41,732 bases of DNA from Actinomycetales bacterium (GTDB lineage Bacteria > Actinomycetota > Actinomycetes > Actinomycetales > Actinomycetaceae), in assembly GCA_017882885.1 (NCBI GenBank), contig JADGOQ010000089.1, forward strand, positions 1 to 41,732, given 5' to 3'. Positions 12,539 to 18,462 of this stretch are shown piece by piece (positions within the stretch are counted from its first letter, which is position 1; each line of letters opens with the position of its first letter). The notes under the pieces are model-generated. The model did no database searches. It was not told where the DNA came from and worked only from the letters and a program-made list of their open reading frames with translations. Position numbers and translations under genes: made by a program.

Positions 12539-13294
12539 TCAGTGGGTGAGGATCCTGGACAGGAATTCCTTCGCCCTGTCGGAAGCGGGGGTGGTGAAGA
12601 ACACGTCCGGGGTGGCCTCCTCGACGATCTGCCCGTCGGTCATGAAGACGACACGATCCGCCGCCCTCCGGGCGAATCCCATCTCGTGGGTGACGACGAT
12701 CATCGTCATGCCGTCCCTGGCCAATGACGTCATCACGTCGAGGACCTCGTTGATCATCTCGGGGTCGAGCGCCGAGGTGGGCTCGTCGAAGAGCATCACC
12801 TTCGGCTCCATCGCCAGCGACCTGGCGATGGCGACCCGCTGCTGCTGACCGCCCGAGAGCTGGGCGGGGTACTTGGAGGCCTGGTCGGCCACCCCGACGC
12901 GTTCCAGCAGCAGCATCGCCAGGTCTCGGGCGTCCGCCGCCGCCATCCTCCGCACCTTGAGGGGGCCGAGGCTGACGTTGTCGAGGATCGTCCGGTGGGC
13001 GAAGAGGTTGAAGGACTGGAACACCATCCCCACCTCGGCGCGCAGCGCGGCAAGGGCCCGGCCATCCTCGGGGAGCTTCCGGCCGGCGACGAAGATCTCG
13101 CCCGAATCGATCGGCTCGAGCCGGTTGATCGTCCGGCAGAGCGTTGACTTCCCGGACCCGGAGGGCCCGATCACCACGACGACCTCGCCCTGGATCACCT
13201 CAAGGTTGATGTCCCGCAGCACGTGGAGGTCGCCGAAGTACTTGTTGACACCGCGCAGCCGCACGAGCGGCTCGCGCGCGGGCGTGGTTGACAT
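12539..13294 (-). CDS. Amino-acid ABC transporter ATP-binding protein (GluA/GlnQ type)
   Basis: 251-residue ATPase of the polar amino acid uptake subfamily. Walker A is GPSGSGKST, the Q-loop region is [11 protein letters not shown], the signature is LSGGQQQR, and Walker B with D-loop is [14 protein letters not shown], followed by the switch His in VVTHEMGF. It closely resembles GluA of gluABCD glutamate uptake systems, which lie next to recX in corynebacteria. Here no permease or binding-protein gene is adjacent: recX lies on one side and fhs on the other. It must pair with membrane subunits encoded elsewhere, or be a leftover of a lost operon. TAGGTT lies 6 nt before the ATG, so the mRNA is probably leaderless. 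Confidence 0.92.
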
Positions 13295-16654: not shown

Positions 16655-17107
16655 TCAGGCCACGTCCTCGTTCGAGGGTGGCGGCCCGAGCGCCTGGAAG
16701 AAGCCGACCCCGGCGCGCAGCGCGCAGTCGAGGTGGGCGATGAGCTGCTCGTTCGACAGCCCGGCACCTGCGGGCACGACGAACCGCGTCCCGATCGTCA
16801 CGCGGCCCTCGGGAGCGGGGCACGTGAAGCAGACGGGCCACAGGTGGTCCCGGTTCCAGTCGTTGACCGCCAGCAGCATGGCCGGCTGGTGCGAATCCTC
16901 GAGTTCGTGGCCCCAGGCACCCGTCACGACCAGCGTGTCCCCCTCGAGTGCGAATCCGAAGGCGAAGCCGTCCCACATCCCGCTCACGCGGTCCGCGGCC
17001 GATCTGGTGGTGTAGCCCCGGGCGGCCAGCGCGGCGGCCACCCGCCCGAGGGTGAGCTCGGTTGCCGTCTCGGGCGGGTCCTCCGCGTGCCGGCGGGTGA
17101 ACGTCAT
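16655..17107 (-). CDS. YbjN domain-containing protein (second of a pair)
   Basis: 150 residues with the YbjN-type fold, an alpha/beta domain resembling type III secretion chaperones. Characteristic segments are the central SHQPAMLLAVNDWNRDHLWPVCF and the late GVGFFQAL. No catalytic residues are evident. The ATG at 17107 overlaps the stop of the other YbjN gene by 4 nt, so the two are translationally coupled and may form a heterodimer. YbjN-family genes between miaB and miaA are common in actinobacteria, where their role is undefined. Confidence 0.82.
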   Translation of the reverse strand: MTFTRRHAEDPPETATELTLGRVAAALAARGYTTRSAADRVSGMWDGFAFGFALEGDTLVVTGAWGHELEDSHQPAMLLAVNDWNRDHLWPVCFTCPAPEGRVTIGTRFVVPAGAGLSNEQLIAHLDCALRAGVGFFQALGPPPSNEDVA

Positions 17108-17550
17108 GCGGGTGTCCCGTACGGGTCCGGGAACGCCGCGTCGAGCCGGCGCAGCGCGAGCGGGAGCGCGGTCATCGCGCGTGTGGCAAGGTGCTCCAAC
17201 TGCCCGTCGCTCGCGCCCGCGGGAAGCCAGTGCGCGCACTCCGCGACGACGGCGAGGTGCCCGCGGTCCGTGATGGTGAGGGCGAGCCGGGGCCCGTCGG
17301 TGGTGCGGTTGGCGGCGTCGAGGAGCTCGCGGACCCGCGCCTGGTGGTCCACGGAGAGTCGCCGGCCCCACCGGCACCGGAACACGAGCGCGGCGGGCCG
17401 CGCGGGATCGAGGTGGGCGTGGACCACCCCCTGGTCCGTTTCCGCCATGAAGCGGCCGGCGCCGTCGGCGTACCATTCGGCGCCACCGGCGGCGGCGAGC
17501 GCCGCCCGCACCCGTCCGCCGTCAACCGGCAGGACGGGCTGTGCGAGCAT
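17104..17550 (-). CDS. YbjN domain-containing protein (first of a pair)
   Basis: 148 residues, a distant paralogue of the downstream gene and of the same YbjN-like class (GRFMAETDQGVVHAHL, LLDAANRTTDGPRLALTI). The ATG at 17550 has no Shine-Dalgarno but has TACCAT 6 nt upstream, indicating a leaderless mRNA. That -10 hexamer is the complement of the first six bases of miaA, and only 6 bp separate the two divergent start codons. Its function is unknown. Confidence 0.75.
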   Translation of the reverse strand: MLAQPVLPVDGGRVRAALAAAGGAEWYADGAGRFMAETDQGVVHAHLDPARPAALVFRCRWGRRLSVDHQARVRELLDAANRTTDGPRLALTITDRGHLAVVAECAHWLPAGASDGQLEHLATRAMTALPLALRRLDAAFPDPYGTPA

Positions 17551-17562
17551 GGTGCCATGGTA
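17545..17562. promoter_or_regulatory. Overlapping divergent promoters/starts of miaA and the YbjN pair
   Basis: The inverted repeat CATGG-TG-CCATG (17548-17559) contains both start codons. On the minus strand TACCAT (17557-17562) lies 6 nt before the YbjN ATG. On the plus strand GAGCAT (17545-17550), which keeps only the A2 and T6 of a -10, lies 6 nt before the miaA ATG. Each start codon is thus part of the other gene's putative -10 element. Confidence 0.5.
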
Positions 17563-18462
17563 CGTCCGGTGATCGCGGTGGTGGGGGCGACGGCGACCGG
17601 CAAGTCCCGCCTCGCCCTTGGGCTGGCGGCGGCGCTCGGGGACGCCGAGATCGTGAACGCCGACGCGATGCAGCTCTACCGCGGCATGGACATCGGCACC
17701 GCGAAGGTTCCGCCCACCGAGCGGCGGGGCGTCCCGCACCACCAACTGGACGTCCTGGACCCCTCCGAGGACGCCTCGGTGGCCGCTTACCAGCGCCACG
17801 CGCGCCGGGACATCGCCGGGATCGTGGCGGCCGGACGCTGGGTGATCGTCGTGGGCGGATCGGGCCTGTACGTGCGCGCCGTGCTCGACGAGCTCCGGTT
17901 CCCGGGGACCGACGCGGTGGTGCGGGCGCACCTCGAGGAACGCGCCCGCCGTGAGGGGTCGCCGGTGCTGCACGCGGAGCTCGCGGCGAAGGACCCGGTG
18001 GCGGCGGCGGTGATCGATGCGCGCAACGTCCGGCGTGTGGTCCGGGCCTTGGAGGTGATCGAGCTGACCGGCGCGCCGTTCTCGGCCACGCTGCCGAGCG
18101 GGGAGTACCACCGGCCGACCGTGCAGGTCGGGCTCCGGCTCCCGGTGCCCGAACTGGACGGACGCATCGCGCTCCGGTCCGCAACCATGATCACGGACGG
18201 CCTGGTGGACGAGGTGGTGGGCCTGGGCCCGCTGTCCCGCACGGCCGCGCGCGCCACCGGGTACGCCCAGGTGCTCGACCACCTCGCCGGGAGCGCCACG
18301 CTCGGCGAGACGGTGGAGGCGATAGCCCTGGCCACGCGGCAGCTGGCCCGGCGCCAGGTCAAGTGGTTCCGCCGGGACGCGCGCATCCACTGGCTGGACG
18401 CCGCCGACCCCGACGCCGCGCTCGGTGCCGCGCTCGCTACTCTGGAGCCATGGCTGGACTGA
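17557..18462 (+). CDS. miaA: tRNA dimethylallyltransferase
   Basis: Transfers an isopentenyl group to A37 of tRNA; MiaB later methylthiolates the product. 301 residues, the usual length. The P-loop is GATATGKS (10-17); DAMQLYRGMDIGTAK and HHQLDV are MiaA signatures, and GSGLYVRAVL is the substrate region. The ATG at 17557 starts the conserved core at once; the open frame upstream is antisense to YbjN and unlike MiaA. The stop lies inside dapF, which starts 13 nt earlier. Confidence 0.95.
   Translation: MVRPVIAVVGATATGKSRLALGLAAALGDAEIVNADAMQLYRGMDIGTAKVPPTERRGVPHHQLDVLDPSEDASVAAYQRHARRDIAGIVAAGRWVIVVGGSGLYVRAVLDELRFPGTDAVVRAHLEERARREGSPVLHAELAAKDPVAAAVIDARNVRRVVRALEVIELTGAPFSATLPSGEYHRPTVQVGLRLPVPELDGRIALRSATMITDGLVDEVVGLGPLSRTAARATGYAQVLDHLAGSATLGETVEAIALATRQLARRQVKWFRRDARIHWLDAADPDAALGAALATLEPWLD
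18438..18443 (+). promoter_or_regulatory. Possible -10 element of dapF
   Basis: TACTCT lies inside the end of miaA, 6 nt before the dapF ATG. GGAG in the spacer could instead act as a weak ribosome site on the miaA transcript. Confidence 0.35.

Follow-up and report, generated by a model that had tools for sequence, protein, structure and literature searches.

The closest described systems are of two kinds. In the bidirectional promoters studied by Warman and Grainger, the two directions share a -10 element, and the divergent transcription start sites (TSSs) are commonly 18, 10 or 23 bp apart (PMC10268837, PMC12825309). In Mycobacterium tuberculosis, leaderless genes make up 26% of those with a primary TSS, and divergent promoters in close juxtaposition are described as common (PMC3898074, PMC5741613); for one divergent pair of this species, prpD and Rv1129c, both 5′ ends were mapped to the start codons (PMC3898074). 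Here we describe a pair of divergent genes, miaA and a ybjN-like gene, in which the -10 hexamer predicted for each gene would reach into the start codon of the other.

The window, i.e. the whole stretch of 41,732 nucleotides that was analysed, belongs to an actinobacterial assembly (G000) of 2.54 Mb in 203 contigs. The genes around the junction are, in order, miaB (+), two ybjN genes (-), miaA (+) and dapF (+), with hflX (+) at a greater distance. The features of the junction are collected in Table 1. The original prediction had placed the start codons of miaA and of the YbjN-like gene 6 bp apart and in opposite directions, and it was right on this point, as well as on the positions and motifs: nucleotides 17545-17562 read GAGCATGGTGCCATGGTA.

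Table 1. Features at the miaA/ybjN junction (positions in the window).
Feature	Position	Strand	Basis or remark
Second YbjN gene, 150 aa	16655..17107	-	translation; PF10722 62.6 bits
YbjN-like CDS, 148 aa	17104..17550	-	ATG at 17550 (CAT 17548-17550); translation and orthologs
Predicted TGN extension of miaA -10	17542..17544	+	T pairs with the third base of ybjN codon 3 (GCA)
Predicted weak -10 GAGCAT of leaderless miaA	17545..17550	+	complement of ybjN codons 1-2
Inverted repeat CATGG-TG-CCATG	17548..17559	.	present by sequence; judged a by-product
Predicted ybjN TSS (+1A), first base of ATG	17550	-	from leaderless geometry
6-bp spacer GGTGCC between the start codons	17551..17556	.	sequence
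Predicted miaA TSS (+1A), first base of ATG	17557	+	from leaderless geometry
Predicted -10 TACCAT of leaderless ybjN	17562-17557	-	complement of miaA codons 1-2 (ATG GTA)
miaA CDS, 301 aa	17557..18462	+	ATG 17557-17559; translation, IPPT PF01715, TIGR00174

MiaA scores 234.4 bits against the TIGR00174 equivalog cut-off of 148.65, and its start was set by homology and by its being common to four genomes of the genus, the window genome and G001, G002 and G003. Both starts are kept in all four, with gaps of 6 (G000), 6 (G003), 7 (G002) and 6 bp (G001), the spacer reading GGTGCA in G003, GGACACC in G002 and GGGACC in G001. The YbjN-like protein has orthologs 55-65% identical in the three other genomes, with an identical start. 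Relative to the PF10722 gathering cut-off of 22 bits, it scores 14.1, its G003 ortholog 22.6 (above the cut-off) and the two remaining orthologs 17.0 and 14.9; the putative YbjN label of this 148-residue protein holds by orthology. The ATG of the second ybjN gene overlaps the stop of the first (ATGA, 17104-17107), which suggests a translationally coupled pair, and the two genes probably form one operon. Several loci in other genera likewise have two divergent ybjN-like matches upstream of miaA. In G002, a second in-frame miaA ATG overlaps the ybjN start codon (CATG, 1491-1494 of locus L003), and miaA and ybjN could both start on these same four bases.

On the ybjN side, TACCAT lies at the place where the -10 (TANNNT) of a leaderless actinobacterial gene would be expected, ending 6 nt before the ATG. 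The corresponding hexamers are TACCAT, TACCAT, TAGCAT and TAGCAT in G000, G003, G002 and G001, at 6, 6, 7 and 6 nt respectively, i.e. TANCAT in each of the four. TA is supplied by miaA codon 2 (GTA, GTA, CTA and CTA), and TANNNT is kept throughout because this codon is always a rare NTA codon. In a genome sample of 256 kb (the window plus 20 contig stretches, with crudely called starts), GTA makes up 1.43% of the Val codons and CTA 0.59% of the Leu codons, and NTA is codon 2 in none of 225 called genes. In post hoc tests of codon conservation, of the 165 fourfold-degenerate positions of miaA, codon 2 alone had a third-base A in all four genomes. A single further codon among the 301 of miaA, codon 298, ends in A in all four; in every genome this A is also the first base of the overlapping dapF ATG, again a neighbour's signal. 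The proposal that the miaA start codon lies inside the -10 of the divergent gene is therefore supported by comparison, TANCAT being maintained across Val and Leu codons.

Could the two genes simply abut by chance, the TA codons reflecting a general A-richness at gene starts and playing no role in a promoter? Codons near the start of genes do end in A somewhat more often (10% at codon 2), and the comparison covers four genomes only. Such a bias sits poorly, however, with the absence of NTA from codon 2 of the called genes, and with the same TA being common to GTA and CTA. In addition, no other tested in-frame ybjN start in the window genome carries TANNNT, and this signal marks other starts in the window. 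We consider chance abutment very improbable.

The last point can be put in figures. The window contains 6 occurrences of TANNNTN6ATG where 0.95 would be expected, and none of 100 shuffles reaches 6, so that a -10 of the ybjN type is not due to chance. The six starts open ORFs of at least 148 aa, recA, dapB and dapF among them. The 7-nt form, TANNNTN7RTG, is mildly enriched (6 versus 2.58, with 5 of 100 shuffles reaching 6). Of the 223 starts called in the 256 kb sample, 22 have a TANNNT 5-8 nt upstream, where shifted positions give 3.9 on average, and 84 have a Shine-Dalgarno-like run. Given these 84 starts and the mild enrichment of the 7-nt form, leaderless starts are not the general rule; they are a real minority in this genome, as in mycobacteria.

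Two other starts of the window deserve mention. The dapF ATG (18450) lies inside the 3′ end of miaA, with TACTCT six bases upstream, within the miaA coding sequence (18438-18462); a TANNNT hexamer is found six bases before the same ATG in the three other genomes of the genus (TAGTCT, TACGCT and TATGCT). TACTCT looks like a leaderless-type -10 of dapF. On the - strand, an ORF of 251 aa (12539-13294) has a leaderless-type TAGGTTTCAGTCATG start and overlaps the 5′ part of the formate-tetrahydrofolate ligase open frame. Because of this overlap, and because the homology of the ligase begins only at residue 185, its start is probably set too far upstream at 12873.

At the scale of the G000 assembly, the one-sided patterns TANCATN6ATG and TANCATN7ATG have 8 sites each, versus 2 and 1 for the reversed controls. 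The 16 sites were checked for coding ORFs in both directions, and miaA/ybjN appears to be the only interlocked case among them. Only one other site, L258, has long ORFs and positive coding scores both ways, and it was dropped because its opposite frame, as judged by eye, is acetyltransferase-like only far downstream of the start concerned. With the crude gene caller, 38 head-to-head pairs were found, the smallest gap being 53 bp; this spacing is a rough backdrop, since the caller misplaces starts (miaA at 17230) and missed the miaA/ybjN pair.

The hexamer on the miaA side is of lower quality than that of ybjN. A degenerate GAGCAT had been pointed out opposite the ybjN element, and it ends 6 nt before the miaA ATG. 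In the four genomes it reads GAGCAT, GAGCAT, GACCAT and GACCAT: -11A and -7T are kept, and -12T is absent from all four, so it is not a TANNNT hexamer. We regard this half as the weaker one because -12T is absent although a synonymous change in ybjN codon 2 could supply the T. The hexamer is nevertheless preceded by TGN in all four genomes, which gives the extended -10 TGNGANCAT, placed as required for a leaderless miaA. In M. tuberculosis, TGN is named as the extended -10 motif; there it is described before TANNNT hexamers, and before only 7% of them (PMC3898074). The ybjN codon concerned, codon 3, is GCA, GCA, CCA and CCA, its final A being common to Ala and Pro codons; among 141 ungapped columns of ybjN, in the same kind of post hoc test, this is the sole third-base A present in all four genomes. 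The degenerate element is thus conserved, as a weaker GA(G/C)CAT with its TGN extension. Taking both sides together, the comparison shows that the head-to-head starts and the letters of the predicted -10s are conserved, as well as rare codons, common to the four genomes, at the complements of putative promoter bases.

No Shine-Dalgarno-like run (GGAG, AGGA or GAGG) is present within 16 nt of either ATG in the four genomes, and no + strand TANNNT was found within 160 bp upstream of miaA in the three other genomes of the genus; miaA is therefore thought to be leaderless. By eye only, no conserved -35 was noticed. An alternative is that ybjN alone is leaderless, from TACCAT, while miaA is transcribed with a leader from a promoter located deeper in ybjN, the overlap being one-way. 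The difference in strength between the two hexamers would fit this scheme, and the window genome does have one + strand TANNNT, 86 nt upstream of miaA. Moreover, about a quarter of the TSSs mapped in M. tuberculosis are without TANNNT (PMC3898074), so an upstream promoter could go unrecognised. This scheme, however, accounts neither for the missing upstream TANNNT in the three other genomes, nor for the lack of a Shine-Dalgarno-like run before miaA, nor for the conservation of TGNGANCAT in all four. TANNNT starts of miaA are also widespread in relatives, at 32 of 176 loci, and at 19 of 19 divergent loci outside the genus, where the starts were chosen by this signal. We consider a leader on miaA unlikely, though it is the alternative that we take most seriously. 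We think instead that miaA is leaderless and uses its weaker extended -10, a view that we hold less firmly than the corresponding one on ybjN, and we argue that it works like a leaderless extended -10 promoter, without being classed as a TANNNT promoter.

Both start codons are part of the inverted repeat CATGG-TG-CCATG, which had been put forward together with them. Two divergent ATGs force the CAT...ATG part, so only GG/CC is extra and the repeat by itself is weak evidence. When the junction is aligned across the genus, the left arm CATGG is kept in the four genomes and the right arm CCATG in three; it is broken in G003 (CAATG), where the symmetry is lost. Both arms are thus intact in three genomes of four, one of which, G002, has a spacer of 7 bp. 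As a functional unit, the repeat is not well supported.

Counts of related motifs were also made. The 2.54 Mb assembly contains a single copy of CATGGTGCCATG. When up to 2 mismatches are allowed, 4 matches are found in the window and 3.66 in shuffles; two of the four are the miaA/ybjN site itself, on its two strands. CAYN6RTG is not enriched in the window (26 versus 37.9). Neither is TANCATN6ATGNTA, the wider element in fully symmetric form, across 297 genomes of the order: it has 25 sites, in 24 of these genomes, and the reversed control is found in 25 genomes (hand count).

A regulator binding CATGG-TG-CCATG as an operator, and controlling both genes, was entertained and thought unlikely, to the point that we give it next to no credence. 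The symmetry of the repeat in the window genome, its uniqueness in the assembly, the invariance of CATGG and the three genomes with intact arms would agree with an operator, but the start codons dictate three bases of each five-base arm, the right arm is broken in G003 and the spacing altered in G002, and the conserved letters extend past the repeat into both predicted -10s. The repeat is probably a by-product, since three of its five arm bases are start codons and one genome of the four breaks an arm. In M. tuberculosis, a C just before the TSS is preferred (PMC3898074). Such a preference would favour arms of this kind beside two leaderless starts and, together with the start codons, may account for most of the repeat.

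To place the locus in a broader context, 176 miaA loci were examined (96 from a set of relatives and 80 from genome contigs; two pairs look identical, leaving 174 distinct). A divergent ybjN was scored when a tblastn match with E ≤ 0.01 was found on the other strand, starting within 420 bp upstream of miaA. Such matches were detected at 24 of the 176 loci, and short flanks may hide more. Five are in the genus (one being a duplicate) and 19 outside. At 13 of these 19, miaA as well as ybjN has an in-frame start preceded by TANNNT at 5-8 nt, the two starts being 32-157 bp apart; at the other six, only miaA has a TANNNT start. The 13 are not an independent count, because starts in the outgroups were picked by the presence of TANNNT, and the least certain of these pairs are L015 and L044, for which the starts used are 108 and 120 bases further upstream than the alignment would place them. 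Two loci from another genus of the family, L013 (G045) and L116 (G013), have leaderless-type -10s back to back upstream of miaA, both reading TAGGCT, 10 and 7 bp apart, and start codons 34 and 32 bp apart. Their arrangement may represent an intermediate form of compaction.

A maximum-likelihood tree was built with 33 MiaA proteins, hand-picked from the 176; its root is arbitrary and many of its deeper forks are unsupported. The four genomes with the interlocked arrangement form one group (100/100) containing two sister pairs, and these four are the only carriers of the feature. The simplest account is that the spacer of a divergent leaderless pair shrank once, in the genus, until the -10s entered the first codons of the opposing gene.

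Our preferred reading, which we hold to be probable, is therefore an ordinary divergent leaderless pair, compacted in the genus until its promoters would interlock. The first base of each mRNA would be the A of the gene's ATG. Codons 1-2 of miaA would be complementary to the ybjN -10 (TANCAT), and codons 1-3 of ybjN to the weaker extended -10 of miaA; the AT with which each -10 ends would thus come from the start codon of the opposing gene. A distance of 7 nt (8 in G002) is predicted between the TSSs, and therefore, in the genomes with a 6-bp gap, each +1A would pair with the opposing -7T: in the window, 17557 with the -7T of the predicted ybjN -10, and 17550 with that of the predicted miaA -10. 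Both polymerase footprints would then cover the same DNA, and RNA polymerase would load in one direction at a time. From this geometry alone, simultaneous occupancy by two RNA polymerases is sterically implausible. The exact TSSs, leaderless translation and the steric exclusion are what we infer from the sequences compared.

One-at-a-time binding does not entail mutually exclusive expression. Five bidirectional promoters of E. coli were described as showing little competition between directions, their basal activity being too low for it, and competition appeared once one side was strengthened (PMC12825309). Exclusion as a regulatory switch is accordingly outside what we claim. A further step would be to see here a separate geometric class of bidirectional promoter, accessible to leaderless genes only. 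In this class, with 6 bp separating the divergent ATGs and each +1A paired with the opposing -7T, each start codon would serve as TSS, as translation start and as the AT end of the opposing -10, the choice of codons 2-3 would set the strength of the opposing promoter, and loading in one direction would exclude the other. We advance this class tentatively, as a possibility that we doubt somewhat more than we believe.

In the miaA/ybjN pair, a compact natural system, the promoter of a neighbour seemingly constrains the choice among synonymous codons, and the pair offers a test bed for the choice of direction by RNA polymerase when two leaderless promoters cannot be occupied together. For annotation, it suggests that where leaderless genes occur in a GC-rich genome, two divergent genes can lie nearly in contact without losing their independent transcription; start calls there should therefore not be shifted to make room for a promoter.

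How does this locus compare with known systems? Among the titles and openings of abstracts listed by literature searches, no interlocked pair was found, and one may exist in print. As in the leaderless genes of M. tuberculosis and M. smegmatis, TANNNT stands just before the ybjN start and no Shine-Dalgarno run is seen; unlike these genes as they are described, both predicted -10s of miaA/ybjN overlap the opposing start codon (PMC3898074, PMC5741613). prpD and Rv1129c resemble our pair in being divergent and both leaderless, which for miaA/ybjN is a prediction, but no sharing of start codons is described in the passage on this pair (PMC3898074). As in the bidirectional promoters of Warman and Grainger, the divergent elements would be too close for two RNA polymerases, and key promoter bases would pair across the strands (PMC10268837, PMC12825309). 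The differences are that the predicted TSSs are spaced by 7 nt, or 8 in G002, that the predicted -10s are separate hexamers 6 bp apart, outside both TSSs and partly in coding sequence, instead of one shared element, and that both mRNAs are predicted to be leaderless, a word absent from the main text of PMC12825309. Because it would work in the same way, yet misses the spacing and the shared -10, we view the miaA/ybjN junction as a variant of the bidirectional promoter.
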